64,000 bases of DNA, from positions 1-64,000 of the forward strand of contig NZ_FSRL01000001.1 of NCBI RefSeq assembly GCF_900142295.1. The letters are read 5' to 3'. This DNA is from Vannielia litorea (GTDB lineage Bacteria; Pseudomonadota; Alphaproteobacteria; Rhodobacterales; Rhodobacteraceae). This document shows, one piece after another, positions 4,080 to 16,637 of the stretch. Both the position numbers and the translations under genes were made by a program. Under the pieces are notes generated by a model. That model worked only from the letters and a program-made list of their open reading frames with translations. It had not been told where the DNA came from and ran no database searches. The stretch's first letter is position 1. Every line of letters starts with the position of its first letter.

Positions 4080-4155
4080 AGGGGTATAGCTCAGTTGGTA
4101 GAGCGACGGTCTCCAAAACCGTAGGTCGCGGGTTCAAGCCCTGCTGCCCCTGCCA
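4080..4155 (+). tRNA. tRNA-Trp (CCA anticodon)
   Basis: 76 bases including an encoded CCA end. The acceptor strands AGGGGTA and TGCCCCT pair, the anticodon arm is ACGGT-CTCCAAA-ACCGT with anticodon CCA, and the T arm contains GGTTCAAGCC. It is complete. Its 3' 45 bases are repeated at 16593-16637, which makes this gene the integration target of the adjoining element; the left copy is the functional one. Confidence 0.97.
4111..4155 (+). repeat. attL core: 3' half of tRNA-Trp
   Basis: These 45 bases run from the anticodon loop to the CCA end of tRNA-Trp and are identical to 16593-16637. The integrase gene begins 59 bases away and reads toward this site. The arrangement is the standard one for tyrosine-recombinase integration into a tRNA, where the incoming att core restores the 3' part of the gene. 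Confidence 0.93.
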
Positions 4156-4213
4156 CTTCTTTTCATGGACCAAATGGACTTCTGCGGCGGACTCCCGTGG
4201 AGCGGTTGGGCGT

Positions 4214-5260
4214 TCAGTTGGGAATTTTTGTTCCGGCTTCGTGCGCCTCCCGCTTGCTGAGTGCTGATTCTGCCATGCGGGCATCACGGCTCAGATAGTG
4301 GGCGTCGAGGATAGCGGCGACGTCCCGAAGGCTATGCCCGGTGAAGGTCGCAATCTCGGCTTCGCTGCATCCGGCGAGTGCGAGCCGGGTGACGGCTGTG
4401 CCCCGCAGATCATGGAACGTGAGCCCCGTGACCTGCGCCTTCGCCAGCGTTTTGCGCCAACTGGCGCTGAAGCCATGACTCGTCCAAGTCGTGCCCTTGG
4501 TGGTGGTGAGGATCGTGACCGCGCTCTTGGTCTTCGCGGCTTCGTCCAGAGAGGCCTTCAGGGTGCCACTCACAGGGATCACCACCCGGCGGCCCGTCTT
4601 GCGCTGAGTGAGGCGGATATGGGTGCCGTCGTAGGCTTTCCAAGTCAGCCGCAGAAGGTCGCCTTGGCGCTGCCCGGTCCAGACCGCCAGAAGGTAGGCG
4701 AGGCGAATGCGGGCCGGGGCGATTTTGAAGAGGGCGGTTTCATCCGCCTCGGTCCAGATCGTATCGGACCGCTTGGAGCGATAGAGCTTGCCGGGACGGG
4801 CGCAGGGGTTGGTTACGATCATGCCCCGGTCGGCGGCCCATGCGAGGATCGCCGCGAAGGTGGCGAAGACGTAATCGGCTTGCCGACGCGAGTTGGCCGC
4901 CATCCGGTCACGCCATGCCAGAAACTCGCCGCGCGTGCGCCGGTCGGAAAGAGCGGCCAAGGGGAAGTCGCCAAATTCGGTTTCTATCTTGCGGACGTGC
5001 TTCACGTAATCCTTTCGGGTGCGTTCGGCCAGATCGGTGAACTTCGGCGAGTCCTGATAGGCGTTCAGAACAGATTGCAGCGTTCCCTTCGGCGTCTTCG
5101 CCTTCGCGGCAATCGCCACATTGTAGGCGTCCACAAACTCAGGATCGCCGGGCTTGCCGGGCAGCCGGGGGCCACCCTTCCATGCGTAGTAGTAAGTTAC
5201 CCGGCTGCCATCGGCGAGCCGTTTGGAAACCCTGTTTATACCTTTAAGACGGAGCCGCAT
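4214..5260 (-). CDS. int: Tyrosine recombinase integrase of the element
   Basis: 348 residues, normal for phage integrases. An N-terminal arm-type and SAM-like core-binding region (to about residue 160) precedes the catalytic domain. Catalytic residues can be followed: Arg198 in GQRQGD, Lys in QRKTGRR near 220, His283 and Arg286 in HDLRGT, His309 in TGHS, and the nucleophile Tyr322 in AHYLS. It should catalyse exchange between the element and the tRNA-Trp att site that lies 59 bases beyond its stop. It is the last gene of the leftward operon and its start overlaps the preceding 68-residue gene by 17 bases. Confidence 0.95.
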   Translation of the reverse strand: MRLRLKGINRVSKRLADGSRVTYYYAWKGGPRLPGKPGDPEFVDAYNVAIAAKAKTPKGTLQSVLNAYQDSPKFTDLAERTRKDYVKHVRKIETEFGDFPLAALSDRRTRGEFLAWRDRMAANSRRQADYVFATFAAILAWAADRGMIVTNPCARPGKLYRSKRSDTIWTEADETALFKIAPARIRLAYLLAVWTGQRQGDLLRLTWKAYDGTHIRLTQRKTGRRVVIPVSGTLKASLDEAAKTKSAVTILTTTKGTTWTSHGFSASWRKTLAKAQVTGLTFHDLRGTAVTRLALAGCSEAEIATFTGHSLRDVAAILDAHYLSRDARMAESALSKREAHEAGTKIPN

Positions 5261-5450
5261 CGCGCTTGGCCTTCCATGTGTCGAAGGGCGTTTCGGCCTG
5301 AGCCGACTCGCCGGATGGTGCCCCCACCATAACCCGGATCGTTCCCTCTCTTGTCACCTCCACAGTCCCGACGCTCAGCCCCGTGGAGCGGACGGCTTTC
5401 ACCGCCCGTTCCACATCGGCTTGCCGGAATGTAGAGGGAGTCCGGGGCAT
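5244..5450 (-). CDS. Small conserved protein preceding the integrase, unknown function
   Basis: 68 residues, overlapping the integrase start by 17 bases, so the two are probably translated together. The N-terminal part (TFRQADVERAVKAVRSTG) looks helical and is followed by a short strand-rich section (VGTVEVTREGTIRVMVG). From general knowledge, short proteins of this pattern often sit upstream of integrases in alphaproteobacterial prophages. An excision or integrase-assisting role is possible but nothing in the sequence proves it. Confidence 0.7.
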   Translation of the reverse strand: MPRTPSTFRQADVERAVKAVRSTGLSVGTVEVTREGTIRVMVGAPSGESAQAETPFDTWKAKRDAAPS

Positions 5451-5454
5451 TGCC

Positions 5455-5784
5455 TTAACCGTTCAGCCGCACGCGGACAGAGCTGGACGGGTTGGCGGCG
5501 GTCGTGACGGCGACGCCGATCTCCGCATTGGAGCCGGAGTCATCGTCGGCGGTCGCCAGTTTGCCGCTCGCATCCCAATAGACCGGATCGCCCACGGCGA
5601 GCACATCGGTCGCGGGCTTGGGCATCTCGAAGACACCTTCGGTGACGATGGTCAGCGTGTCACCGATCTCAGCGTCTCCGGCGGCAATGCCGAAGAGCGA
5701 GCCGACCAAAACGCCGTCGCCGGAGCTGGAGGCCGCTGCGGCCGTCAAGGTGATGTTCTCACCCGGTTGCACGTAGTTCTTCAT
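5455..5784 (-). CDS. DUF2190 head decoration/capsid-stabilising protein
   Basis: 109 residues beginning MKNYVQPGENITLTA, with a Shine-Dalgarno-like AAAGGAA upstream. The whole chain is predicted beta-rich, with the phrases GVLVGSLFGIAAGDAEIGD, GVFEMPK, VGDPVYWD and AEIGVAVT that are typical of the DUF2190 family found next to major capsid genes, where members decorate or cement the head. An upstream extension exists in frame but is arginine/proline-rich and lies inside the gpW gene, so it was rejected. It follows gpW by 1 base. Confidence 0.85.
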   Translation of the reverse strand: MKNYVQPGENITLTAAAASSSGDGVLVGSLFGIAAGDAEIGDTLTIVTEGVFEMPKPATDVLAVGDPVYWDASGKLATADDDSGSNAEIGVAVTTAANPSSSVRVRLNG

Positions 5785-5785
5785 C

Positions 5786-6007
5786 TCACGTTCCTTTCGA
5801 GGTCTTGAAGTGGAAGGCGGCAGGGGGCCGTTGAGCCAGCGCCGCGATCTCCGAGTCCAGGGCGGCGAGCGCCCGGGCCATCTCGGCGTCGGAGCGGTAT
5901 TCGACTTCCTCGCCGTTGGCGTCCCGGGCGCGGCGCACGCCACCCGCACGCGCTCTGAGAAGCGCGTCACGGGCAGCGGTCAGCTCTGCGGCGGTCAGGG
6001 CCATCAC
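5786..6007 (-). CDS. gpW-type head-tail joining (head-completion) protein
   Basis: 73 residues, close to the 68 of lambda gpW, with the family pattern: an N-terminal helix (LTAAELTAARDALLRARAG), a central hairpin (VRRARDANGEEVEYRS), a second helix (DAEMARALAALDSEIAALAQ) and a short basic tail. gpW closes the filled head and creates the surface on which a tail attaches. Its presence in an element with no tail genes suggests that heads are completed for docking of a tail made elsewhere. It overlaps the end of the capsid gene by 4 bases; a second ATG one codon later is an equal choice. Confidence 0.82.
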   Translation of the reverse strand: MMALTAAELTAARDALLRARAGGVRRARDANGEEVEYRSDAEMARALAALDSEIAALAQRPPAAFHFKTSKGT

Positions 6008-7782
6008 TCACCTTCGTTGAGGTAGGAGCCGCGCCAGTCCAGCCAGCCCGCGCCGAAGTCGAGCCAAGCGCGGAACTTGAGGCCCAGCGTGGACCACGCC
6101 TCGGCGCGCTGGATTTGCACGCCCTGCGCCGAGCTGAGGTAGCCATACTGGATCGCCGCCAGCCGGGCCGGATCGGTGAAGAGATACCAGCGCTCATCGG
6201 TGATACGCGGCTCCACCAGAAGCGAAAGCTTGGTGGCGAAGGCGTTCACGTCATCGACGGTGGCCGGGTAGATGTTGGCCAGCAGCCGCTCGGCCGCGCT
6301 CTCGCACTCCGGGCCGACCAGAAGGTATTTGGGCGAAGCGTTGATGAGCGTCTTGCCATCAAGGCCGGTGTAGCCGCGCATGGCCTTGCGAGCCGCTTCA
6401 ATCGTGGTCTGAGCCCCCTCGGAATTGAGGGAGAGGCCGCTACTGGCGATGTTGCCCCGGCTGGCGTCATGGACCGGCGTGCCGTCGCTCAGGTTGGGGT
6501 TGGCCGTGACCAACGCCACCAAGATTTCGTCTTCGGTCTGGGCTGCTGCCTCGCCGAAGGCGGCCGTCATGTCGCCGAGCATCCCAAGGTCATCGTTGAT
6601 GAGCAGCTTGCGCGAGACGGTAATGCCCCGGGCATAGGTGCTGAGCTGCATCGTCTCGCCGTTCTCTGCACGGCTGGTGGCGGTGATCTCGCCGGACTCG
6701 TCCAGCTCTTCCAGCCGCCCCATCTCGCCAAGGCGGATGCTGGTCGCGGTCTTGAAATTGGAGAGGCTGCGCTGGCGGCCGAGCTTCTTCAGAGGCGAGC
6801 TGGCAGCTTGGTAGCTCGTCTCAGCCGTCTTGCCCATGGCATTGCTGACCAGCAGCGCGAAGTCGGACGTGGTGTGCTCGGCCGCCCGGGTGAAGACCTC
6901 ATCCGGCGACATGCCACGGGTGGAGACGCCAGCCCGGTTCAGGCTTTCCCGGGCCACGTCGCTCATCGTGAGGGACATATACGGCCGGACCTCGGGCGCG
7001 GGCTCGCCACCCGCCATGCGGATGTGCAGCGCCTCGGCTTGCCGGTCGCGGATCACCGCCGGGTCATCGTTGGAGCTGTGAATGCGGATGGTCGGCTGCG
7101 AGCGGCGCTTCTCCTGCGTCGCGTCGAAGACGGCGGCCTTCGCGGCGGTCATGTCGGACCTGCCATCAATGAGCTGGTCGGCCAGCTCATCGCCGAGACC
7201 GGCCGAGCGGACCAGCCCCCGGATGTCGCTCCGGCGCTGCGCCTCGGCCGCTTCCGGCGTCTGGGTTTCGATCACTTCTTCGGGCATCTCGTTTCCTTTC
7301 TGCCTCAGTCGGGCCGACGGATCGGCCGGGTTGCTTGTCAGGGTGACTTCAGTAATCCGCCAGCTGGACGGGCTCTTGGCCCGGCCCTGCGGCGTGGACC
7401 TCTCGGTCCATCCCGAGGGACGGTAGCCGACGCTGACTCCGCTCAAGGTGCCATCCGCGACCCGCTGGCGGATCGGCGCAGCATCTTCGGCGGAGGTCAG
7501 CTCAAGGACGGCGACAACGGAAGTGCCCTCCAAGGCGATGGACTGGACCCGTCCAATCTGGTCGCGCACGGAGCTGGTGCGGTGACTGTCGAGAACGGGA
7601 AGACCTTCAGCGGCCGAGAGGTCCAGCGTCTCGGCCGTGAGGATTTCTTGGTAAGGGCCCCGGGAGTCTTGGCGCAGGACCGGGTTGGACGTGGCGATCA
7701 CGGCCGTAACGGTGCGGGTGTCCGGATCGTAGGAGTTGGGCCGCGTCGACGCGGCGCGGGTCATCTGGGCATCAAGAGGCAT
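6004..7782 (-). CDS. Prohead protease-major capsid protein fusion
   Basis: 592 residues. Residues 1 to about 170 form a prohead-protease domain: PYQEILTAETLD, a His in VLDSHRTSSVRDQIG and a Ser in DGTLSGVSVGY occupy the positions of the assemblin-like catalytic pair. A charged, helical linker (about 175-260; TPEAAEAQRRSDIRG) would act as scaffold or delta domain. The rest is an HK97-like major capsid domain ending SAQGVQIQRAEAW and FRAWLDFGAGWLDWRG. Fusions of this type are a recognised phage family. The ATG at 7782 has AAGGAG 9 bases upstream; the longer in-frame extension lies in the portal gene. It overlaps the portal stop by 11 bases. Confidence 0.9.
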   Translation of the reverse strand: MPLDAQMTRAASTRPNSYDPDTRTVTAVIATSNPVLRQDSRGPYQEILTAETLDLSAAEGLPVLDSHRTSSVRDQIGRVQSIALEGTSVVAVLELTSAEDAAPIRQRVADGTLSGVSVGYRPSGWTERSTPQGRAKSPSSWRITEVTLTSNPADPSARLRQKGNEMPEEVIETQTPEAAEAQRRSDIRGLVRSAGLGDELADQLIDGRSDMTAAKAAVFDATQEKRRSQPTIRIHSSNDDPAVIRDRQAEALHIRMAGGEPAPEVRPYMSLTMSDVARESLNRAGVSTRGMSPDEVFTRAAEHTTSDFALLVSNAMGKTAETSYQAASSPLKKLGRQRSLSNFKTATSIRLGEMGRLEELDESGEITATSRAENGETMQLSTYARGITVSRKLLINDDLGMLGDMTAAFGEAAAQTEDEILVALVTANPNLSDGTPVHDASRGNIASSGLSLNSEGAQTTIEAARKAMRGYTGLDGKTLINASPKYLLVGPECESAAERLLANIYPATVDDVNAFATKLSLLVEPRITDERWYLFTDPARLAAIQYGYLSSAQGVQIQRAEAWSTLGLKFRAWLDFGAGWLDWRGSYLNEGE

Positions 7783-9157
7783 CGGGGGACTCCTTGGAGC
7801 TGAAGGACAGGCCCAGCTCGGCTTCGCGGGCGCGGTCGGCCGCGATCTCCCGGTCCAGCTCATCGGCATTCCAGCCAAGCTCATTGATCGCCTGCGAACG
7901 GGACGTGAGGCCGAGCGCCAGAGCCTCGCCAACGGCCGCCATGTCCTTCTGAGGATCGACTTGCTGGTGGCGGGGCATGATCCACTCGGCGCGAAGGTCC
8001 GGCAAAACGTCCAGCCGCCCGGAGCTGACTTCCAAGGCGAGCCAACGCCGCCAGATGGGCCGAAGAAGCTGGGGCACCAGCACGCCGTATTGAGTTTGCT
8101 CCACCCGGGCGCGGAAGGGCAGCAGCCCGGCGCGAAGGGAGCTGTAGTTGGCGTTGGTGAGGTCGCCGCTGACCATGTGCTCCGGGAGGCCCAGAGCGGC
8201 CGCCAGAGCCAGCAGGTTCATCCGGACGAAGGCCGGAGCGTCCTTCAGCTGTTCCGGTCCGCTAAGACGAATATCTTCTCCGAAACCAAGACGATACAGG
8301 CCACCGGGAGTAATGCCTTCCTCTTGGAGTCGATCCACCCCTTCTGAAAACGGCGTTCCAACGCCGTTCTGGTCAGTGATAAACCCGGCAAACATCGCAG
8401 AGACCTTCGCGGAGACCAGCAGCGCATCTGTCAGCTGGTCCAGCTCGCTGGCGGGCAAGACGGCCGCTGCAAGCCAACTCAGGCCCCGGACTTGTCCGGC
8501 GGCGAGCGGCTGCATGACGTGGAGCACGTCGGCCGCATCCACCCGCACGGGAGGGGCATACTCAGCGAAGGTGGAGGTCGGCTTCTGCGGCAGAATCCAG
8601 TAGGCCACGCGCTGGCCCTCGGCGTTGAACTCCACGCCGTTGACGATCTCTCGGCCGTCGCCAAGGGTGGCGGTCTTGGACTCGTCCAGCAACTCAGGTG
8701 GAATGAGTTGCAGCCTGAGCCCGTCGGGCTCATCGCGCATGATGAGAATAGCTTCGCCGTCGACCATCAAGTGGCGGGCGACGCTGGACAGAAGCCCCCA
8801 AAAATCGGTGGTGCCGTAATGGTCGGCAAGCTCGGCCCACAGCTCGAATGCACCGCCGATCAGTTCCCGGGTGCCAGCATCATCGGTGCGGGTCGCGGGG
8901 CGAATGCCGGTGCCGACCAAGGCCGCGACGAAGTTGGCGACGGCATTGGAGACGAAGCCGTTGTTGGTGGCGAGATACCGGCACCGGCCCCGCGTGATCG
9001 AGGCAGCCGCGCTGACCTCAGGATTGATCGGGCCGCTGACGCCCAAGCCGCTCCCTCTCCGGCCACCCGTTGCAGCGTCGATAGAGCGCCGCCGGGTGGT
9101 CGGTGCGTCCCGCGAAATGATGCGCCGGACGAATTGAGGGAGGAAAGCGCTGGCCAT
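7772..9157 (-). CDS. Phage portal protein, lambda gpB family
   Basis: 461 residues. The N-terminal region (SIDAATGGRRGSGLGVSGPINPEVSA split by an arginine-rich start, then ITRGRCRYLATNNGFVSNAV) and the following VANFVAALVGTGIRP match the opening of lambda-type portals. The dodecameric portal forms the DNA entry vertex, nucleates head assembly and binds the terminase. The chosen ATG at 9157 overlaps the preceding stop (TGATG junction), which indicates translational coupling. Family and position, between terminase and capsid genes, agree. Confidence 0.92.
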   Translation of the reverse strand: MASAFLPQFVRRIISRDAPTTRRRSIDAATGGRRGSGLGVSGPINPEVSAAASITRGRCRYLATNNGFVSNAVANFVAALVGTGIRPATRTDDAGTRELIGGAFELWAELADHYGTTDFWGLLSSVARHLMVDGEAILIMRDEPDGLRLQLIPPELLDESKTATLGDGREIVNGVEFNAEGQRVAYWILPQKPTSTFAEYAPPVRVDAADVLHVMQPLAAGQVRGLSWLAAAVLPASELDQLTDALLVSAKVSAMFAGFITDQNGVGTPFSEGVDRLQEEGITPGGLYRLGFGEDIRLSGPEQLKDAPAFVRMNLLALAAALGLPEHMVSGDLTNANYSSLRAGLLPFRARVEQTQYGVLVPQLLRPIWRRWLALEVSSGRLDVLPDLRAEWIMPRHQQVDPQKDMAAVGEALALGLTSRSQAINELGWNADELDREIAADRAREAELGLSFSSKESPDAS

Positions 9158-9780
9158 CAGTTCATGGCTTCCCGGCGGGCCCGCCCATGGGGGTGCCAGC
9201 GGTCCAGAGCATCGGTGAGGTCGACGGCGATGCACGAGCGATGCAGGTATTGGCCGTGGTTGCCGTATTGCAGCGGCGTGCTGTGGAAGCCGTCAGGGTG
9301 CTTCGGGTCGACACGGTGGATGCGCCCTTCAAAGCGGAGGTCGCCGGTCTTCCCATGGATGAAGCTCCACAGCTCGAAGACCCAACCGCGCACATCAAGC
9401 TCATACTCAGCGATCACGTGCGCCGCAGGGCTGTGGACGGCACCTTTCGGGCGGCCACCCGACCAGCCGCGCAGCGCGAGCGCGGCGGCGAACATCGGAT
9501 CGGCCTTGGCGCCTTCGCCGCCACGGATTCCAAAGTCACGCAGACGCAGCAGCACATCGGCGGTCAGCATGTAATCCGGGGTCAGCAAGAAGGACTTCTT
9601 GCCGCGCTCTTCGCGGGCACTCGGCAGGAAATACCCGGCCCTCAGGAGCGCCCGGGTCTGGTCATAGGCGACCTGCCGGTCTTGCCCAGCCACCATGAGC
9701 GTATCGGTGATCTGAGCGCAGTCGATGAGGCCCTTGGGGCGGTGCGCAACCGTGGGCGGAATGTTCAGAATGGCAGCCAT
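9157..9780 (-). CDS. Unknown protein of the packaging operon
   Basis: 207 residues. A ribosome binding site (GAAAGGA) precedes the ATG, and its stop overlaps the portal start, so it belongs to the morphogenesis operon. The N-terminal 80 residues (LIDCAQITDTLMVAGQDRQ, YDQTRALLRAGYFLPS, SFLLTPDYMLTADVLLRL) resemble a winged-helix-like region. The C-terminal half (HVIAEYELDVRGWVFELW, GRIHRVDPKH) is mixed alpha/beta with several His residues. No family is recognised. It occupies the place where other phages keep a head-tail connector or an HNH/regulatory gene. Function is open. Confidence 0.75.
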   Translation of the reverse strand: MAAILNIPPTVAHRPKGLIDCAQITDTLMVAGQDRQVAYDQTRALLRAGYFLPSAREERGKKSFLLTPDYMLTADVLLRLRDFGIRGGEGAKADPMFAAALALRGWSGGRPKGAVHSPAAHVIAEYELDVRGWVFELWSFIHGKTGDLRFEGRIHRVDPKHPDGFHSTPLQYGNHGQYLHRSCIAVDLTDALDRWHPHGRARREAMN

Positions 9781-10020
9781 TCAATGGTCCTTTCGAGCAA
9801 AAGAGATACCCCGGATTAACGGCGAATCGGCTCCAGCAGCAAGGCAAAAAATGCTTAGGCTACCGTGGGTTGCCTATGTCTTGACGGGGTGTCGGGTGTT
9901 GCCGAATCGGCTCCGGTGAGTGTAGGAGTGGACCCGTCGCCGCATACAGCCATGCGGGACTCCTTGCCGGATGGGCCAGCGCCGGGTTGCACTGGCCCAT
10001 CCACTCGGAAGGGACCAAGC
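9781..10020. promoter_or_regulatory. Divergent control region between head genes and cargo genes
   Basis: 240 bases separate the leftward head operon from the rightward cargo genes. The 12-mer CGAATCGGCTCC occurs twice (9823-9834 and 9903-9914), 80 bases apart. The second copy lies in the palindrome GCCGAATCGGC. TTGACG at 9881-9886 could be a -35 box for the rightward genes, but its -10 partner is poor. Both flanking genes have usable ribosome binding sites, so bidirectional transcription from here is likely; the repeat as an operator is inference. Confidence 0.45.
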
Positions 10021-10263
10021 ATGAAGAACTCGAAAAAGCTGGGCCGGACACGGGCAGGCGGAGCCAAGGCGTCGCGTGTGAGGTCGTTCCGTGCCGAACT
10101 AGACTTAATTGTTGCTCGCTACGAGACGCGAACTGGCGTCGGTTTTCCGCAGAATCTGGGGAGGCCAGAGGTCAAGGAGAGGGTCGAGGAAGATCCGGCT
10201 TTCCGGGCGGCTCTCGCTGAGGTTCACAAAGCGGCGGAGTATTGGCTGCACGGACAGGCGTGA
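10021..10263 (+). CDS. Small basic protein upstream of the HEPN gene, unknown function
   Basis: 80 residues starting MKNSKKLGRTRAGGAK with GGAAGGGA 7-8 bases upstream. The first 25 residues are strongly basic. The rest (SFRAELDLIVARYETRTG, GRPEVKERVEEDPAFRAAL, EVHKAAEYWLHGQA) is helical and charged. It reads opposite to the surrounding phage operon and ends 77 bases before the HEPN-motif gene, so the two probably form one cargo unit. An antitoxin or partner role is conceivable but not shown. Confidence 0.65.
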   Translation: MKNSKKLGRTRAGGAKASRVRSFRAELDLIVARYETRTGVGFPQNLGRPEVKERVEEDPAFRAALAEVHKAAEYWLHGQA

Positions 10264-10339
10264 CTGCGCACGAAGGTTGATGCGTTCTGTCTGGTATGTC
10301 AGTCTTTCCCTAGGGATTTGGCCGTGCGGTAGATTTGAG

Positions 10340-11149
10340 ATGGCAATAGATGACGGGATGTTCTTTTTCCCAAGCGGCAAGGCCACTTGCACGAAGTCTT
10401 TTTACAATTTTCTAGAGGATTATGACGGCATTGTAAGTAGCGTTCTTTTCATTGCTATGATGGCAACCTCAGCCGACGAAAAACGTGTTCGAGCACACGA
10501 ATTTCTGCTGAAATATCGGAAAGCGATGGGTGAGGAAGGAAGCGAAGAGGAGATTGATCCTAGCTACTACGTGAAGGAATTCGTTAAGCACGATTTTGCA
10601 GTATGCCGAAGCATCATCTGCGGCTTTGCGGATGTGTTTCTTTGGTATCTGGTAGCCATCATTCAGGATTGTGGGCGACGGAGGCCGGAAATTCTGAACA
10701 CAAATGAAAAAATTTCGATTGAAGACATATTAGTCAGGGGAAGTAAGAGCGAGATCATTGAGTTTCTGCTAGATCGAAAAATAAACTCCTTGTCCTATGG
10801 AGGGCTCAAGGGGATTGAGGCTTTCGCCAACGAGACCCTTGGAATCAGCATATTTCAAGATCAAGAGTCGCGTGATGCAGCCAGATTACTAATAGAGTGC
10901 AGAAACGTTTATGCGCACAACCGTGGATTTGTGAACGAAATCTTTATTCGTCGCCTTGAAGGTAGTGGCTTAGAGTTACCTGAGATTGGGAGTAGGCTGA
11001 ATTTCAAGATTCACAAAATTATTGGACTCATCAACTTGTGTGTTCCGGCCTTGGTCCAATATGATCATTCGTTAGCAAAGAAATTTAAGATTCAAAAAAA
11101 GAAGATAAACACTTGGGGGAGCGCTTTTCCGAGGTTGTCTCCGGTTTAG
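10340..11149 (+). CDS. HEPN-motif protein, candidate defence ribonuclease carried as cargo
   Basis: 269 residues in strikingly AT-rich DNA: 23 of 60 bases at 10741-10800 are G or C, against roughly two thirds in the neighbours. The C-terminal helical region contains ECRNVYAHNRGFVNE, with Arg188 and His193 forming the R-N-x3-H (Rx4H) active-site motif of HEPN ribonucleases. A hydrophobic helix lies near residues 90-115 (IICGFADVFLWYLVAII). HEPN proteins commonly act in abortive-infection and toxin-antitoxin systems. The gene faces against the phage operon and sits between portal-side and terminase genes, a cargo position. ATG 10340 was chosen; ATG 10280 is a possible longer start. Function is inferred from the motif. 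Confidence 0.75.
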   Translation: MAIDDGMFFFPSGKATCTKSFYNFLEDYDGIVSSVLFIAMMATSADEKRVRAHEFLLKYRKAMGEEGSEEEIDPSYYVKEFVKHDFAVCRSIICGFADVFLWYLVAIIQDCGRRRPEILNTNEKISIEDILVRGSKSEIIEFLLDRKINSLSYGGLKGIEAFANETLGISIFQDQESRDAARLLIECRNVYAHNRGFVNEIFIRRLEGSGLELPEIGSRLNFKIHKIIGLINLCVPALVQYDHSLAKKFKIQKKKINTWGSAFPRLSPV

Positions 11150-11174
11150 GAGCGCTTGGCAGCCTCTATGCGTA

Positions 11175-12947
11175 TCATCTTCCCAACCAATTGCTCCGGA
11201 TCACCCTAGCCCGCTTCTCACCGCCCGTCACGCTCGCCAGATCGGCTTCCCTGCGCTCCACGTCCAGCCCCACCAGTCCCCGGGCCGCGTAGCTGTAGAC
11301 CAGCGTATCCAGCGCTTCGTTGCGCCGCCCGGAGATGACCTCCCATCGCCGGATCGGGTGGCCCCGGCTGAACTTCGTCACAAGCCTCTCGGCCCGGAGC
11401 TGGTCGAAGTAGTCGCCGCCCAGCTCATCGCTGAAGAGGATCGTGTCGCCATGGGCGAGCCGCTGGTGCAGCGCCAGCTTCACGCCGTCGATCCCGATGA
11501 GCGCCAGCCGGGTGCTGCGCGACGTGCTGAAGGCGAGGGACTGGCGGCCGAAGCCCGAGACGCCCTTTCCGGGCAGAATGCGCCGGGCCGAGCGGGGGCG
11601 GCAGAATGCGTAGACTTGATCCGCCCAGTTGCCGGAGTCGATCACGGCCGCATCCAGTGTCAGCACGCCGCCCGCCGGGTGCCGGAACTGGCGGCGCAGG
11701 GCATCGTCCACTTCCGCCCAAGTCTCGTTTTCGGTCGGGCTGCCCCAGATCACGTCATGGCCCAGGACCCGCAGATCATCGTCTTTCGTCCAGCCGGTGA
11801 AGGTGATTTCCACCCGGTCCTTTTGCACGTCCGCGCCCGCCGTCAGCACCAGCGCTTCGGGCGGCACATTGGAGAGGCTGAAAGGCCGCCGCAGCCCTTC
11901 GAGGTCGGTCGCGTCCAAGTCGTCGCCTTCGCCGCGCCACGGCTCGCCAAGCACGGTGTTGAGCCAAGGCTTCAGGGTGGTCGGGCTCCGCTTGGCCTGA
12001 AGGAACTCGGCCGCTAGACGCGTCCAAGAGGCGTTGGGGAGGGTGCTGGTCAGGCTGGTGAGCTTGTAGCCCCGGTGGCCCTCCACGTGCGGCGCTGTGG
12101 CCCGCCAGCGGCCCTCTGCCACCATCCGGGGCTTCTGCCGGTCTTCCACCACGCTCCCGCACTCCGGGCAGACCCAATGGGCCGTCTCCGGCTTCTCGGC
12201 GTCCCATCGAATGTCTTTCCAGAGGATTTCCCCGAAATCGCCACAGCCGGGGCAGGGGACTTCAAAGACTCGCTTGTCGCTCTGGTCATAGGCTCGAAGG
12301 ATGCGGCTCGTTTCGGCGTCGACCGGCGTTGAGGCGAGCACGATCTTGCGATTGCCGAAGGTCATGGTGCGGCGCATGGCCAGCTCCACCGGGTCGCCCT
12401 CTACACCCGCGCTCAGCTCATAGGCGTCGATCTCATCGGCGAAGAGGATGCGGGCCGTCCGGGCCCGGAGGTTGCGCGGGGCACGGGCAGAAACGATGGA
12501 GAGGCTGCCCCCGGCGAAGTGCCGGTGCATCAGCACATCGCGGCCAGAAGCGTCGGCCGTCAACGCCGCCCGGAGAGCGGGGGACTCGCCAAAGGTCGGC
12601 TCCACCACGCTGACCATCAGGTGCCGCGCATCGGCCTCGGCCGGGACAACGCAGAGCACCGGGCTCGGGTCGTTCTCCACGAAATGGCCGAGCGCCCCGA
12701 CCATCAGCTGAGTGGCCCCGACGCGAGCGCTCTTCAAGATCGAGACGCGCTCCACGGTATCGTCGCCGATGGAGTCGGCGATCTCGATTTGCGGCTTCCA
12801 GAGGCGCATCCGGCCGGGCTGAGCGGCGAGGCTGGACGGGAGGTAGATGCTGGATTGAATCCACTCGCTGAGCGCCAGCTTGGCGGGCGGCCGGAGGGCT
12901 GCCAGAGCGTCGCGGCGCAGCTGGCCAAATCTCGGGTCAACGGTCAT
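11175..12947 (-). CDS. terL: Terminase large subunit, GpA family
   Basis: 590 residues, the size of lambda-type GpA motors. The ATPase domain has the deviant Walker A SARVGATQ (about residue 75) and a Walker B ILFADEID (about 165). A Cys4 zinc ribbon is formed by CPGCG and CPECG (about 235-285). The C-terminal nuclease part includes GADVQKDRVEITFTGW. The enzyme cuts concatemeric DNA and drives it through the portal. The start at 12947 overlaps the end of the small-subunit gene by 11 bases, indicating coupled translation; an upstream in-frame extension is arginine-rich shadow sequence. GpA-type motors usually work at cos sites; no cos site was located. Confidence 0.95.
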   Translation of the reverse strand: MTVDPRFGQLRRDALAALRPPAKLALSEWIQSSIYLPSSLAAQPGRMRLWKPQIEIADSIGDDTVERVSILKSARVGATQLMVGALGHFVENDPSPVLCVVPAEADARHLMVSVVEPTFGESPALRAALTADASGRDVLMHRHFAGGSLSIVSARAPRNLRARTARILFADEIDAYELSAGVEGDPVELAMRRTMTFGNRKIVLASTPVDAETSRILRAYDQSDKRVFEVPCPGCGDFGEILWKDIRWDAEKPETAHWVCPECGSVVEDRQKPRMVAEGRWRATAPHVEGHRGYKLTSLTSTLPNASWTRLAAEFLQAKRSPTTLKPWLNTVLGEPWRGEGDDLDATDLEGLRRPFSLSNVPPEALVLTAGADVQKDRVEITFTGWTKDDDLRVLGHDVIWGSPTENETWAEVDDALRRQFRHPAGGVLTLDAAVIDSGNWADQVYAFCRPRSARRILPGKGVSGFGRQSLAFSTSRSTRLALIGIDGVKLALHQRLAHGDTILFSDELGGDYFDQLRAERLVTKFSRGHPIRRWEVISGRRNEALDTLVYSYAARGLVGLDVERREADLASVTGGEKRARVIRSNWLGR

Positions 12948-13431
12948 CTGCAATCGCCTCCATCGCGTCGCGGATTTCCGAGTCGAGCGCGGCCGTCTCT
13001 TTCCGGTCGAAGCCCAAGCGGCTGGCCACCCGGGACGGCACGGCGAGGATCGCCGCGCGAAGGTCCACCACGACAGAGCGCCACTCGTTGGCGACCTCCC
13101 GGGAGTCCAGAAGTTCCCCACGGGCGGCGGCGTTCTGAAGCGCGATCTTGTCGGCTTGCTCCCGGGCCAGCCGCACCTTCTCTTCCGCCAGTGCGTTGTC
13201 GGCGGCCTTCCCCTTGGCCAGCGAGCGGGCATGGTCGCAGTAGGCCGCCACCGATGCTCTCAGGGGATACCGCTTCTCAGGGGAGCGGGGCAGCACGCCA
13301 TCCCTCCCCAGCGCATGGACCCGGTTGGCGGTGAGGCCCAGCCAATCCCCCAGCTCGCCAGCCGTCACCAAATCCCCCTCAGGGGCACGGGCGGCCATGA
13401 GAATTGCGTCAATGTCTTCCAGAGTAGTCAC
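12937..13431 (-). CDS. terS: Terminase small subunit (Nu1-like DNA-packaging protein)
   Basis: 164 residues. Residues about 20-60 form a winged-helix reader of the Nu1 kind (LVTAGELGDWLGLTANRVH, then RDGVLPRSPEKRYPLRASV), followed by a long helical segment with LAEEKVRLAREQADKIALQN, the usual oligomerisation and TerL-contact part. The protein would recognise the packaging start of the element. It heads the packaging operon immediately upstream of terL. The promoter side (13432-13670) contains palindromic C4-N3-G4 sites described separately. Confidence 0.88.
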   Translation of the reverse strand: MTTLEDIDAILMAARAPEGDLVTAGELGDWLGLTANRVHALGRDGVLPRSPEKRYPLRASVAAYCDHARSLAKGKAADNALAEEKVRLAREQADKIALQNAAARGELLDSREVANEWRSVVVDLRAAILAVPSRVASRLGFDRKETAALDSEIRDAMEAIADDR

Positions 13432-13487
13432 AGAGGCCCTTTCCCACGGTGAATATCCCCCACAGGGGCAAAATCCCCCTGAGAGGG
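13375..13487. promoter_or_regulatory. C4-N3-G4 palindromes at the head of the packaging operon
   Basis: CCCCTCAGGGG (13375-13385, in the first codons of terS) and CCCCACAGGGG (13458-13468, upstream of it) share the form CCCC-WYA-GGGG. A degenerate third copy CCCCCTGAGAGGG lies at 13475-13487. The same 11-mer pattern, CCCCTTAGGGG, recurs at 14356-14366 inside the iteron block. Half sites TCTCAGGGG occur within terS near 13258 and 13275. The spacing and location suit binding of an element-encoded regulator or of TerS; which one is unknown. Confidence 0.5.
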
Positions 13488-13670
13488 TTTTTCCAAATCA
13501 AGATTGCCCCCACAGCCGAGAATCCCGGGGCTCCGCGCCCCCCGCAGAAGGCTGGTCCAGGAAGAACCTAAAGCGACGCGCTGTCGCGCGCCCTCTGATT
13601 GAACTGAATTGGTCATTGCAAGGCCGCATTCTCAGTCTCCGTTGCATTGGTGGAAATGAGTGGTGAACCG

Positions 13671-14282
13671 ATGACAATCTATCCAGAGAACGAACCCAGC
13701 CATAGCCTTCTGACCCGGCGCAATAGGGAGGGTTTGAAGTTCGAGTCTGAACAGCCAGTCACTCATGTCGCGGAGAAGCCTCCCACAGAACTGACCAAAG
13801 CCGCGAAGATCGTGATCGGCATCGTTGTCGTGCTTGGTTTGGGACTTTGGTTCGTTCGGGGCGACTCCCAGCGAACTGAGAGTGGCGAACATGACTACGC
13901 GACGTTTGCTGTTCCCGAGATGCCGGAGAGACAATGTGAAGAATTCTCGAATGCAATGTATCGGTTTGCGCAGCGTCGCGATCATGGAGCAAACGAGTGG
14001 GGAGTTCGCAGAGCTATCAAGAAGTCGCTGCCAATGCCGTGGTTCATGGATGACGTGGACGGCTTCTCGGGTAGGCGTGAAAGAGCTCGTTCCATAGCCT
14101 TTCGGCTTTACAACTCGAGTCTTACACCGGAGGAGGTCCGCTCTTCCGTCGAACAGGACTGCAAAGCAGTCTTTGCGAGCAGGGCCGAACGCCGCAAGCC
14201 ACCCGGTTCCAAATATTCCATCTCTGACCGGGACCGAAAGATCGTCATTGAAATGATGAACCGCGCGACCCGCGACCGCTGA
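13671..14282 (+). CDS. Single-pass membrane protein of unknown function (cargo)
   Basis: 203 residues from ATG 13671, which has GGTGA 4 bases upstream; ATG 13656 would add five residues. A soluble, acidic N-terminus of about 45 residues is followed by one transmembrane helix (AAKIVIGIVVVLGLGLWFV) and a charged C-terminal domain with two widely spaced Cys residues (RQCEEFSNAMYRFAQ and EQDCKAVFASR). The topology would place the C-terminal domain on one side of the inner membrane. It reads rightward, against the phage operon, and its GC content (31 of 60 at 13921-13980) is lower than that of terL or the primase. No family recognised. Confidence 0.7.
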   Translation: MTIYPENEPSHSLLTRRNREGLKFESEQPVTHVAEKPPTELTKAAKIVIGIVVVLGLGLWFVRGDSQRTESGEHDYATFAVPEMPERQCEEFSNAMYRFAQRRDHGANEWGVRRAIKKSLPMPWFMDDVDGFSGRRERARSIAFRLYNSSLTPEEVRSSVEQDCKAVFASRAERRKPPGSKYSISDRDRKIVIEMMNRATRDR

Positions 14283-14338
14283 ACTGAAGACGTCAGCTAG
14301 AGTAACTTGCAGTTGGCAGAAGTGAGTTGCATCGGCGG

Positions 14339-14452
14339 GACAGGACAACAGGACACCCCTTAGGGGTTGTGTCCTGTCCTGTCCTGTGGCCCGTCGCCGG
14401 TTTGCCGGAGGACATGTCCTGTAAATGTCCTGTCCTGTCCTGTTGTCCTGTC
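14339..14452. repeat. GTCCTGT iteron array, candidate replication origin of the element
   Basis: Within 114 bases the heptamer GTCCTGT occurs eight times on the plus strand (14371, 14376, 14381, 14416, 14427, 14432, 14437, 14445) and twice inverted (14340, 14348). The block is bounded by a perfect 17-bp inverted repeat (14339-14355 and 14436-14452). Inside are the palindrome AGGACATGTCCT (14409-14420) and ACCCCTTAGGGGT (14355-14367). It ends 3 bases from the stop of the primase-helicase gene. Satellite islands and small plasmids keep iterons next to their initiator gene, so an origin is the most economical reading. No strongly AT-rich unwinding stretch is obvious. Confidence 0.72.
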
Positions 14453-14454
14453 GG

Positions 14455-16416
14455 CTATACATCCTCGTCCCCCAGCAGCATCTCAGGCGCATCGGGCAAA
14501 TGGATTATCTCTCCCTCAGAGTGGAAGAGCTGTCGCCGGGCCAGCTCTTCCAACGCCCGCCGGAACGCCTTGCGCCGGTCGTCGGGCTTTTCAGCACCGG
14601 ACACGGCGTCACTGTCGACGCATGCCTTGCGCCAATCGGATTTGGTGACGCATTTGCCACCTTCCGAAAGTGCCTCCAAGATTTCCAGAGCGGCCTTGGC
14701 GCTGGCGGGCAGCCGGGTGGCGGTGTCCCGCACAACCGGGCCGCTCTCGTCATCGCAGATCGGCGCGGTGATCGGATCGCCATCGGCATCCGTGCCCAGC
14801 TGAATCTCCCCCACGCTGAAGGCCAAGCTCTGGTCGGTCGTGCCGTTCCGGTTCTTCGACGGCCGGACCTCCACCAGCCGTTTCTCGCGCCTCAGGTGCA
14901 GCGACACATCCAGAGCGCCGTTGAGGATGGAGTGCCCGCGCGGGAGCCCGTCGCCTGCCTTGGTGTCGTGGTGGATGAGAAGCACGGCCGCGCCCCATTG
15001 GGTCAGGGAGCGGGCGACAGAGACCACCTTGCCCATGGCCTTGGACTCGTTCTCCTCAAGGCCCGGAAAGGCGGCTGCCAGAGTGTCGATGATGATGAGC
15101 GACGGCCGGTGCTGCTTCACGGCTTGGCGCAGCGCCCGGCTGTCTTCGACACTGGCGAGGTTGGTGACGCCTTCGACCAGATGGAAGCCGTCGGCCTCGC
15201 CATGCTGGTCCCGGAGCGCTGTGACACGCTTCCTGAGGCCGAGCGCGTCTTCCGCTGCGACATAGAAGACGCCGCCCGCCTTGGTGCGCCGGTCGAAGGC
15301 TTCAACGCCTCGCGCAACGGCATAGCCAAGATAGGGCGCGATGACGGATTTGCCGGAGCCCGGAGCGCCGATGATCGCGCCCACGTCCCGCTCCGCCAGC
15401 AGGCCCTTGATGACATATTCGCGGGCAGGCATCTCGGCGCAGTCGCGCGGCTTCAGCAGCCTCAGGCCGCCCCTGCTGCGGGTCTGGCGGTTCTCTTCCA
15501 GAATCCGGTCAATCTCGGCCATGGTCCAAGCGGCCGTTTCCACATCCTCATCGGTCAGCATGGACGTGTCGCGCCAGCCGCGCCTCTCCGCCTCGGCGAT
15601 GATCGTTTTGCCGGTGACGCCGCCTTCCTTGTCGGCCGTGAAGGACGCCCACGCCTCATCGGTCTTGGTCGTGTCGTAGCTCGGGTGCTGGGCCGACCAG
15701 TCGTGCCAAGCCTCTTCGCCTTCGAGGCTGCCTTCTGTCTCCGCATGGAGGGCCATTCCGATCCGCAGCCAATCCTCCCGGCCGCCGAACTCGTCGCCGT
15801 CGTTGGGCAGCGCAGAGAGGGCAGAGAGGATCACGCTGAAGTCACGGCCACTGGGCTCGGCCTTGGCCTGTCCGGCGGGCTTCTGCTGCGGCAGGAAGGT
15901 CTTGGGCCACTCCGGGAGGTCATCGCCCAGAGAGCCGCTGGTGATGCTGTAGACGCCTTTCCCGTTGATCGCACCGGGCGCGATGACGAAGCCGCCTTCT
16001 GCCTTGACGTCTACGCCGTATGGAACGGGAGCACTATTGCCCATGCCTTCGGGGGGCCGGAAGTAGATGTGGCGGCCGCCGCTCGGCGTGGTGATCCAGA
16101 CCGGCGACATGGCGTCCACGTCGTTGAAGAGCGCCAGCGCTGCGAGCCCGTCCCTTTCACCCTTGCAGTCCACATCCATGACGGCGATCCCGTTGCGGCT
16201 TCCGGTCGGCAGCGCGGGCATGGCGTTGGGCCATTTCTTCCACCATCGCTCGATTTGGGCCGGGTCATCGCTGGCCTTGTCCTGCCACCCCTTGATGAGC
16301 GGCCGCTTGTTGGCCCCGGCCGGAAAGACCGTGAAGCCTTTGGCCACCAGCGCCAACGCGGCGTCGCGGTTAGAGGCTTGTTCAGCCCCGGTTTCTGGGG
16401 TATTATGATACCGCAT
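14455..16416 (-). CDS. Primase-helicase replication initiator (prim-pol plus RepA-like ATPase)
   Basis: 653 residues. Residues about 15-190 are an archaeo-eukaryotic-type primase/polymerase domain, with the metal-binding acidic pair in AVMDVDCKGE and the catalytic His strand SGGRHIYFR. A PriCT-2-like helical domain follows (GREDWLRIGMALHAETEG). A RecA-fold ATPase has Walker A GAPGSGKS at about 345-352 and Walker B SLIIIDTLAAAFPG. The last 100 residues look like a winged helix (SDWRKACVDS, RRQLFHSEGEIIHLP). Such proteins start replication of phages and satellites from adjacent iterons, which lie directly downstream here. It is the rightmost gene of the element. Confidence 0.93.
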   Translation of the reverse strand: MRYHNTPETGAEQASNRDAALALVAKGFTVFPAGANKRPLIKGWQDKASDDPAQIERWWKKWPNAMPALPTGSRNGIAVMDVDCKGERDGLAALALFNDVDAMSPVWITTPSGGRHIYFRPPEGMGNSAPVPYGVDVKAEGGFVIAPGAINGKGVYSITSGSLGDDLPEWPKTFLPQQKPAGQAKAEPSGRDFSVILSALSALPNDGDEFGGREDWLRIGMALHAETEGSLEGEEAWHDWSAQHPSYDTTKTDEAWASFTADKEGGVTGKTIIAEAERRGWRDTSMLTDEDVETAAWTMAEIDRILEENRQTRSRGGLRLLKPRDCAEMPAREYVIKGLLAERDVGAIIGAPGSGKSVIAPYLGYAVARGVEAFDRRTKAGGVFYVAAEDALGLRKRVTALRDQHGEADGFHLVEGVTNLASVEDSRALRQAVKQHRPSLIIIDTLAAAFPGLEENESKAMGKVVSVARSLTQWGAAVLLIHHDTKAGDGLPRGHSILNGALDVSLHLRREKRLVEVRPSKNRNGTTDQSLAFSVGEIQLGTDADGDPITAPICDDESGPVVRDTATRLPASAKAALEILEALSEGGKCVTKSDWRKACVDSDAVSGAEKPDDRRKAFRRALEELARRQLFHSEGEIIHLPDAPEMLLGDEDV

Positions 16417-16446
16417 TATGCATAGTCTCCAGCTTCCATGTTGCCT

Positions 16447-16477
16447 GCGCCGCCCCGGTTGGTCCCTGAGGCGGCGC
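16447..16477 (+). other. GC hairpin upstream of the primase-helicase gene
   Basis: GCGCCGCC (16447-16454) pairs with GGCGGCGC (16470-16477) and is followed by the pyrimidine run TTTCCTTTTC. On the plus strand this resembles an intrinsic terminator, although no plus-strand gene obviously feeds into it. On the minus strand it lies upstream of the primase-helicase start and could be a control element. The rest of 16417-16592 holds no credible gene. Confidence 0.4.
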
Positions 16478-16592
16478 TTTCCTTTTCAGGGCATTCTTGG
16501 TTGGCAGTTCCGACGTAACCCATTGGCGCATAAAGGAGCGAAATCAGGGCAGTTGGAAAAATTGCCGTTAGGTTTCAACGGAACGGCCCGGA

Positions 16593-16637
16593 CTCCAAAA
16601 CCGTAGGTCGCGGGTTCAAGCCCTGCTGCCCCTGCCA
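16593..16637 (+). repeat. attR: partial tRNA-Trp duplicate
   Basis: 45 bases identical to the anticodon-to-CCA half of the tRNA-Trp at 4111-4155. The 5' half of a tRNA is missing, so this is not a gene. It marks the right junction of the element; the following bases (GGCCACC...) are the original chromosomal flank leading to the ETF-QO gene. Confidence 0.93.

Follow-up and report, generated by a model that had tools for sequence, protein, structure and literature searches.

Can a chromosomal element that encodes a phage head and the enzymes to fill it, and in which no tail gene is recognised, still pass from cell to cell? The question is raised by a stretch of Vannielia litorea DNA (positions 1–64,000 of contig NZ_FSRL01000001.1, assembly GCF_900142295.1; the whole 64,000 nt are called the window here), in which an element of 12,482 bp, measured repeat to repeat, lies at 4107–16637 between tRNA-Trp and a copy of the 3′ end of that tRNA. 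The presence of a tailless head-making element in tRNA-Trp is confirmed. We read it as a phage satellite that forms its own capsids, borrows its tails and belongs to a large family centred on Rhodobacterales, and put the probability of this reading at roughly 80%. It works like a capsid-forming phage-inducible chromosomal island (cfPICI), a class reportedly described by Alqurainy et al. in 2023, and probably spreads by borrowing the tails of other phages, a use of helper tails that we infer from gene content. A preliminary description of the locus had called it cfPICI-like. As a statement of function (own head and packaging, no tail or lysis gene recognised, integration in a tRNA, a family with the same layout) this is supported; as a statement of lineage it had to be corrected. 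The element departs from cfPICIs in its capsid family, and neither an HNH gene nor any connector other than gpW is recognised in it.

Gene content and a candidate packaging site

The two attachment repeats differ at one position in 49 nt, and the 45-bp direct repeats of tRNA-Trp reported earlier correspond to the exact 45 nt that start at 4111 within them. Transcription on the minus strand runs from the primase-polymerase/helicase through the terminase small and large subunits (TerS and TerL), orf207, portal, protease–capsid fusion, gpW-type adaptor, DUF2190 cement protein and orf68 to the tyrosine integrase. The features are, from left to right (ORF, open reading frame):

4080–4155, plus strand: tRNA-Trp, intact (ARAGORN); its 3′ 49 nt (4107–4155) are one attachment-site repeat
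4214–5260, minus strand: tyrosine integrase (PF00589, 54 bits; phrog_1, E 2e-42)
5244–5450, minus strand: orf68, small gene adjoining the integrase (from position and homologues elsewhere)
5455–5784, minus strand: DUF2190 or cement (head decoration) protein (PF09956, 93 bits; phrog_122; scanned as 5455–5736)
5786–6007, minus strand: gpW-type head-tail adaptor (Ad1), after the capsid gene (phrog_2545, E 6e-13)
6004–7773, minus strand: fused prohead protease and major capsid protein (PF25209, 138 bits; phrog_4523 'major head and protease', E 4e-150)
7772–9157, minus strand: portal (PF05136, 256 bits); start picked from relatives, the ORF reaching 9235; overlaps orf207
9157–9780, minus strand: orf207, MerR-type winged-helix protein (MerR-like)
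10358–11149, plus strand: low-GC gene hyp263 (GC 0.44) in the cargo slot between TerL and portal; without PADLOC or Pfam match
11175–12947, minus strand: terminase large subunit, lambda GpA type (GpA_ATPase 255 bits, GpA_nuclease 240 bits; scanned as 11175–13127)
12937–13431, minus strand: terminase small subunit (phrog_57, E 5e-21)
13525–13569, minus strand: cos-like packaging site, cosQ-like then cosN-like, about 100 nt upstream of terS; predicted from sequence
13671–14282, plus strand: gene between TerS and primase, without Pfam or PHROG match
14455–16416, minus strand: primase-polymerase/helicase replication protein (Prim-Pol, PriCT_2 and AAA_25 above cut-offs)
16589–16637, plus strand: second attachment repeat, 49 nt, 98% identical to the 3′ part of the tRNA

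Hidden Markov model (HMM) matches supported every gene that the preliminary description had named (integrase, primase-helicase, TerS, TerL, portal, protease–capsid, DUF2190 and gpW), and these genes are intact, as it had said; its list was incomplete, since orf207, orf68, the cos-like site at 13525–13569 and a second element in the same genome had been omitted. Its picture of compactly overlapped genes holds for the module, where several neighbouring genes overlap by a few bases, but the module is interrupted by the two plus-strand genes, whose GC contents (0.44 for 10358–11149 and 0.55 for 13671–14282) are lower than the 0.63 of the element. In the capsid fusion the protease family PF04586 scored 18.8 bits, below its cut-off of 21.

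Pfam and PHROGs scans of the element's proteins matched no tail, baseplate, holin, endolysin or other lysis family, in agreement with the earlier statement that such genes are missing. The same scans gave no match for HNH and none for the PICI regulators Stl and AlpA, for which no dedicated model was run. An integrase and attachment repeats, which are expected of phage satellites in general, are present, as are the TerS, TerL, portal, protease and capsid genes expected of a cfPICI; genes for a complete virion and for lysis, which satellites generally lack, were not recognised, and the relatives offer no space for a tail module.

The region upstream of terS contains 10-mers common to up to 27 of 56 such regions (shuffles reach 4). 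We observed there a pair of motifs, GGGTCCYTCC followed by GCGGGG 22–35 nt on (start to start), named here after the lambda sites cosQ and cosN. When up to 2 mismatches of 16 are allowed, the pair occurs in 56 of 59 upstream regions, compared with 40 of 1180 block shuffles; the 59 regions come from the window, the second element, 55 of the 80 named loci described below, L038 (genome G005) and L033, whose genome is apparently that of L057, near-copies being kept. The site in the window has 2 mismatches of 16, the same as lambda under that pattern, and the lambda record has the same layout at its joined ends. In sequence, this cosQ-/cosN-like stretch upstream of terS looks like a packaging site of the lambda cos type. 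Pben1 (L052), a tailed Paracoccus phage, has the same layout about 100 nt upstream of its terS, and cross-packaging with the satellites is therefore conceivable; RcKvothe does not have it (5 mismatches). Conserved motifs in the TerL–portal slot are weak, with 10-mers in at most 8 of 57 loci.

From these parts we propose that, when a tailed helper enters or is induced, the element would excise and replicate with its own primase-helicase. The head operon would be switched on, with orf207 as the candidate switch, a small head would assemble, and about 12.5 kb of DNA would be packaged from cos. The portal/gpW end would then accept the neck and tail of the helper, whose lysis would release the particle.

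In this scheme orf207 may act as regulator of the head operon; a role as head or scaffold protein was considered and set aside in favour of the MerR-type fold. The small gene orf68 is possibly a recombination directionality factor or a DNA-binding factor. At its position in other loci 8 of 49 ORFs are homologous and the remainder are of several other kinds, and some relatives have a small helix-turn-helix-like gene beside the integrase. Head closure by orf68 was thought unlikely, because the ORF at that place belongs to several unrelated kinds across loci.

A family of relatives with the same layout

A scan of named genomes with a nine-row capsid alignment matched 235 loci, and the best 80 were kept. 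By their titles these are mostly Rhodobacterales, the rest coming from organisms that we take to be other Alphaproteobacteria. Elements of two cultured relatives, Wenxinia marina and Sinirhodobacter ferrireducens, were among those read. Although several loci are cut by contig ends, we found the capsid in 80, DUF2190 in 78, the portal in 75, gpW in 73, and TerL and TerS in 59 each. The primase matched that of the window in 37 loci; L034, read by HMM, has a VapE-like protein instead. The gpW gene follows the capsid gene in all 73 loci that have both. The tailed gpW-type phages RcKvothe (Rhodobacter), Pben1 and yong2 (Microcystis) have homologous TerL, portal, protease–capsid fusion and DUF2190 genes and a gpW-type gene, but their gpW-type gene sits between TerL and portal, they continue with tail and lysis genes, and their capsid is 29–34% identical. 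A small gene between TerL and portal was found in all 14 tailed relatives with that stretch in view, several times as a gpW or adaptor gene (annotated or matched); no judgement was possible for Shewanella 1/44, L048 and the unannotated L218.

Downstream of the head genes, a tyrosine recombinase lies within 2.5 kb in 58 of the 70 loci that have 2.5 kb of downstream sequence. The gap between DUF2190 and the integrase has a median of 257 bp and a maximum of 1167 bp over all loci with an integrase, and the family uses more than one integrase type. An alternative, DUF6538-type integrase was seen in L058 (12489–13754), where it was read by Pfam, and in 13 further loci; in L058 and most of the others it is on the strand opposite to the head genes. 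An exact repeat of at least 18 bp joins the integrase side and the far side in 24 of 51 loci, whereas a control stretch gave 0 of 46, the longest repeat there being 15 bp. Elements bounded by such repeats measure 10,199–13,090 bp (median 11,942), and this narrow range fits, and does not prove, a fixed small head. The tRNAs at the attachment sites include those for Phe, Ser, Cys, Glu, Met, Arg, Lys, Thr, Val, Tyr and Pro.

These distances bear on the possibility that the element is a self-sufficient minimal phage whose tail proteins are unrecognisable. Such a phage could hide its tail in orf68, hyp263 and hyp203, which have no assigned function, or in the TerL–portal slot of about 2 kb. Yet no ORF in the gap from DUF2190 to the integrase exceeds 193 aa across 63 loci, the slot genes (largest ORF 634 aa in 58 loci) vary in size and kind from locus to locus, and no lysis gene was recognised, and we therefore regard a minimal phage as very unlikely. 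In L100 and L114 the terminase genes are on the strand opposite to the portal, and the large slot genes there may therefore be replication genes. Tail genes were screened for by BLAST against three tailed-phage references, which flagged all five tailed prophages (L044, L045, L047–L049). The screen is not fully sensitive, because it missed the tape-measure gene of L243, and the argument from the gaps weighs more. One weak tail-like match was obtained, at the edge of L056 (E 7e-4). In the integrase-less loci, one downstream gene was taken from each of 10 of the 12 (L063 and L086 left out), and none gave a tail match.

Within the genus, the tRNA-Trp site carries no such element in five of seven genomes and is occupied in two, that of the window and G005. 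At four of the empty sites the next gene begins about 100 bp past the tRNA, as it does beyond the right repeat of the window; in G006 (L227, 116–641) it begins about 525 bp past tRNA-Trp, with no second copy of the tRNA. A search of related genomes at trnW had been recommended, and it did yield the G005 element at the same tRNA, although in a partly decayed copy. Compared with the window, the G005 integrase is 97%, DUF2190 79%, gpW 75% and the capsid 44% identical; an integrase this close beside a capsid this distant indicates that heads and integration modules are exchanged. The second element of the window's own genome (C1:1950090–1962198, spanning L031 from 14091 and L032 to about 6300) is 12,108 bp long, with a 21-bp repeat at tRNA-Glu and the same gene order. 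It is diverged, its capsid being 61–64% and its TerL and primase 46% identical to those of the window.

Selection, descent and the case against

In six close pairs of relatives the ratio of nonsynonymous to synonymous substitution rates (dN/dS) of terminase and head genes was 0.045–0.270 (30 comparisons), so that the head genes of these pairs are under purifying selection; between the window and five relatives it was 0.113–0.471 (27 comparisons, with synonymous sites near saturation). The capsid matches listed in the family survey contain no internal stops. In the capsid tree a single branch (SH-aLRT 99) separates 77 satellite rows from 15 tailed rows. We read 16 further loci, most of them near the edge of the similarity range; 14 had no tail gene by the BLAST screen, and when 15 of the 16 were added (L232 gave no row) the split, now 92 versus 15, held with support of 100. 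Since loci were picked by similarity to satellites, a clean split is favoured. A single origin of the family seems likely from these trees. The best capsid matches among phage records were 34% identical over 59% of the length and 31% over 98% (best 30 of 189).

Several observations weigh against a tail-borrowing satellite. The reading rests on sequence, and neither excision nor a particle nor a helper has been seen. No head-closure or neck gene was recognised in the element beyond gpW. The uniformity of the 80 loci comes partly from their selection by similarity to satellite capsids, and 12 of 70 show no integrase downstream. Three integrase calls are weak: L114 and L066 have a profile match only, and L100 a profile match plus similarity to another integrase group. 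Among the 27 of 51 loci without a long flanking repeat, 23 have one of 13–17 bp and 4 have none, which singly is about chance level. The preliminary description had held that decay in related copies would speak against it; the window is intact, but the G005 copy retains a 261-aa piece of the primase only, with no exact second repeat found, and the capsid is divided between two ORFs in 6 of the 80 loci. In L243 (G722:C6, 9086–12240), which stands inside the satellite capsid clade beside a subgroup of 12 rows, DUF2190 is followed by a tape-measure and a minor tail gene. In L244 (G147:C1, 9326–13018) satellite head genes run on into broken tail fragments from a tailed prophage, and the start of the portal ORF resembles a tape-measure gene.

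L243 may be either an early branch that kept its tail genes or a branch that gained them, and could be an intermediate between tailed phage and satellite. As to the split capsids, L124 has overlapping protease and capsid genes, and the other such loci are perhaps frameshifts. Two overlapping ORFs in place of one fusion were also noted for L034 (L034 and L124, Wenxinia marina).

The damage in L244, in the G005 copy and in the six split-capsid loci would suit a decayed or domesticated prophage, immobile after the loss of its tail and lysis genes. For Rhodobacteraceae prophages, one survey found bimodal lengths with a 10–15 kb peak that it ascribed to degradation, and assigned 22 regions to gene transfer agents (GTAs) (PMC8224337). 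Such decay would hardly leave the same gene set and order over many genera with more than one integrase type, purifying selection on the head genes of close pairs, a kept cos-like site, flanking repeats, unoccupied sites, and capsids that form a clade of their own. On balance we consider a dead prophage unlikely, and prefer a functional satellite. It may even be that part of the roseobacter 10–15 kb peak consists of this family, which we offer as a suggestion only (PMC8224337).

Comparison with known systems, tail donors and cargo

The comparison with published elements draws on PMC11389934, PMC10690885, PMC13230959, PMC10803314, PMC8224337 and PMC13345588. In these papers, cf-PICIs are credited with HNH alongside terminases, portal, protease, capsid and connectors (PMC10690885), the cf-PICI capsids placed in a tree (n = 900) are PF05065 (PMC13230959), three clades are spoken of for cfPICI capsids (PMC11389934), and the main hosts are stated to be enterobacteria, pasteurellas and firmicutes. 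The present element resembles them as a small integrated island that encodes terminases, portal, protease, capsid and adaptor of its own and no recognised tail genes. It differs in having no recognised HNH gene and in having gpW, placed after the capsid gene, as its sole recognised connector. Its family has the PF25209 fusion capsid and not PF05065, a distinction drawn from published descriptions and not from a joint tree. The logic shared with cfPICIs, down to the element's own integrase, would allow for descent from one of their published lineages. However, the window capsid matched PF25209 and Mu gpT and gave no PF05065 match at E 0.1, the treed cf-PICI capsids are PF05065 (PMC13230959), three clades of cfPICI capsids are reported (PMC11389934), and an HNH gene was not recognised. 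A cfPICI proper is accordingly extremely unlikely, and since the strategy is shared but the PF05065 capsid is not, we do not file the family under that name.

The Streptomyces satellites MulchRoom and MiniFlayer also have their own terminases, portal and capsid, and use of a helper's tail has been suggested for MulchRoom (PMC10690885). They are set apart, by description, by the lack of replication genes, by direct terminal repeats and by low GC, and their authors reported no significant homology to cf-PICIs (PMC10690885). Among the matches listed in our literature search there was no description of such satellites in Rhodobacterales or Alphaproteobacteria, which is not proof of absence.

The host also has a GTA, a head-forming locus of the kind known from Rhodobacterales, and it raises two further possibilities. 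To our knowledge, GTAs carry no mobility genes. We searched the window's genome for portal, terminase and tail families and found only the GTA (about 1251–1262 kb) and the two satellites: PF05136 occurs in the two satellites only, and PF04860 and PF17289 at the GTA locus only. PF10145 was absent from all seven genus genomes, while PF06074 gave no match with its controls also silent. Tail or lysis genes of the element elsewhere in the genome had been named beforehand as a finding that would count against it; with the families searched no separate tail portion turned up, only the GTA, which is present in all seven genus genomes.

That the element itself is a GTA-like host system is suggested by its being a chromosomal head module in a host with a GTA cluster. 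But it has an integrase and attachment repeats, which a GTA would lack, as well as a replication gene and a cos-like site, and its distribution is patchy; the GTA lies elsewhere in the genome and has a tail gene of its own (GTA_TIM) and other portal and terminase families; this reading has next to no likelihood. The other possibility is that the GTA donates tails, heads closed by portal and gpW taking GTA tails and leaving the cell by GTA-linked lysis. In its favour, the GTA is the only tail-bearing locus revealed in the window's genome (few families were searched); against it, the GTA portal is of another family, so that there is no ready-made fit, and we think such a donor highly doubtful. 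A resident helper is not required: in work on E. coli, phages foreign to the strain of a cfPICI were able to move it (PMC11389934).

The slot between TerL and portal has a median of 1981 bp in 58 loci, and its varied genes differ in size and kind between loci. They include a GmrSD/SspE-like nuclease in L034, an AbiU-like gene and an HNH gene (HNH_2) in L126, and DUF2971 in L104 and, just below the cut-off, in L068. The other slot genes that were scanned, the window's own cargo gene included, gave no defence match. The slot carries exchangeable cargo, with anti-phage genes in some relatives. As a defence gene hyp263 was not retained, having no PADLOC or Pfam match.

One relative seems to live outside the chromosome. 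L086 (NZ_RRAZ01000057.1, 1–12094; Falsigemmobacter faecalis) is a contig of 12,094 bp with identical 45-nt ends that carries the terminases and a head module after which come a primase and a replication protein of the RepL family (PF05732, above cut-off); no integrase was found in it. From its sequence it looks like a circular satellite-plasmid. End overlap, looked for in 88 loci that may be whole contigs (a few being truncated by the flank limit), was found only in L086 and L211, both of 12,094 bp and with the same ends. Parallels are two satellites of Vibrio crassostreae, cf-PISP TG54 and PISP TG93, which encode capsids and are maintained as plasmids (PMC13230959). TG93 has a PF03864 capsid, and a capsid other than PF05065 had thus already been reported in such an element; the TG54 capsid is PF05065 and clusters with gammaproteobacterial cf-PICIs, and the plasmid genes are ParA/RepA where L086 has RepL (PMC13230959).

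If these interpretations hold, another capsid family, PF25209, seems to have its own large radiation of head-making, tail-borrowing satellites, and the strategy would have evolved again, marked by the move of gpW behind the capsid gene. The choice of tail could set which species exchange cargo, defence genes included. The element's defined cos-like site, its candidate regulator and its cargo slot are all open to test.

As to spread, 47 of 394 sampled genomes of one bacterial family had a match to the window capsid at E ≤ 1e-70, as did 6 of 385 genomes of the class sample, 4 of them outside the family and one being that of L243. The neighbourhoods were read in 20 of the 47, and one, G147 (L244), had tail fragments. 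Extra primase or integrase genes adjoining the element in L064 (13723–15766), L074 (1728–2699) and L239 (17709–18719) suggest tandem elements at one site. Relatives are encoded by 373 stretches in IMG/VR, of which 80 were kept; one record of 12,203 bp, with a capsid identical to the window's, is apparently this very element, which has therefore already been catalogued as a virus.

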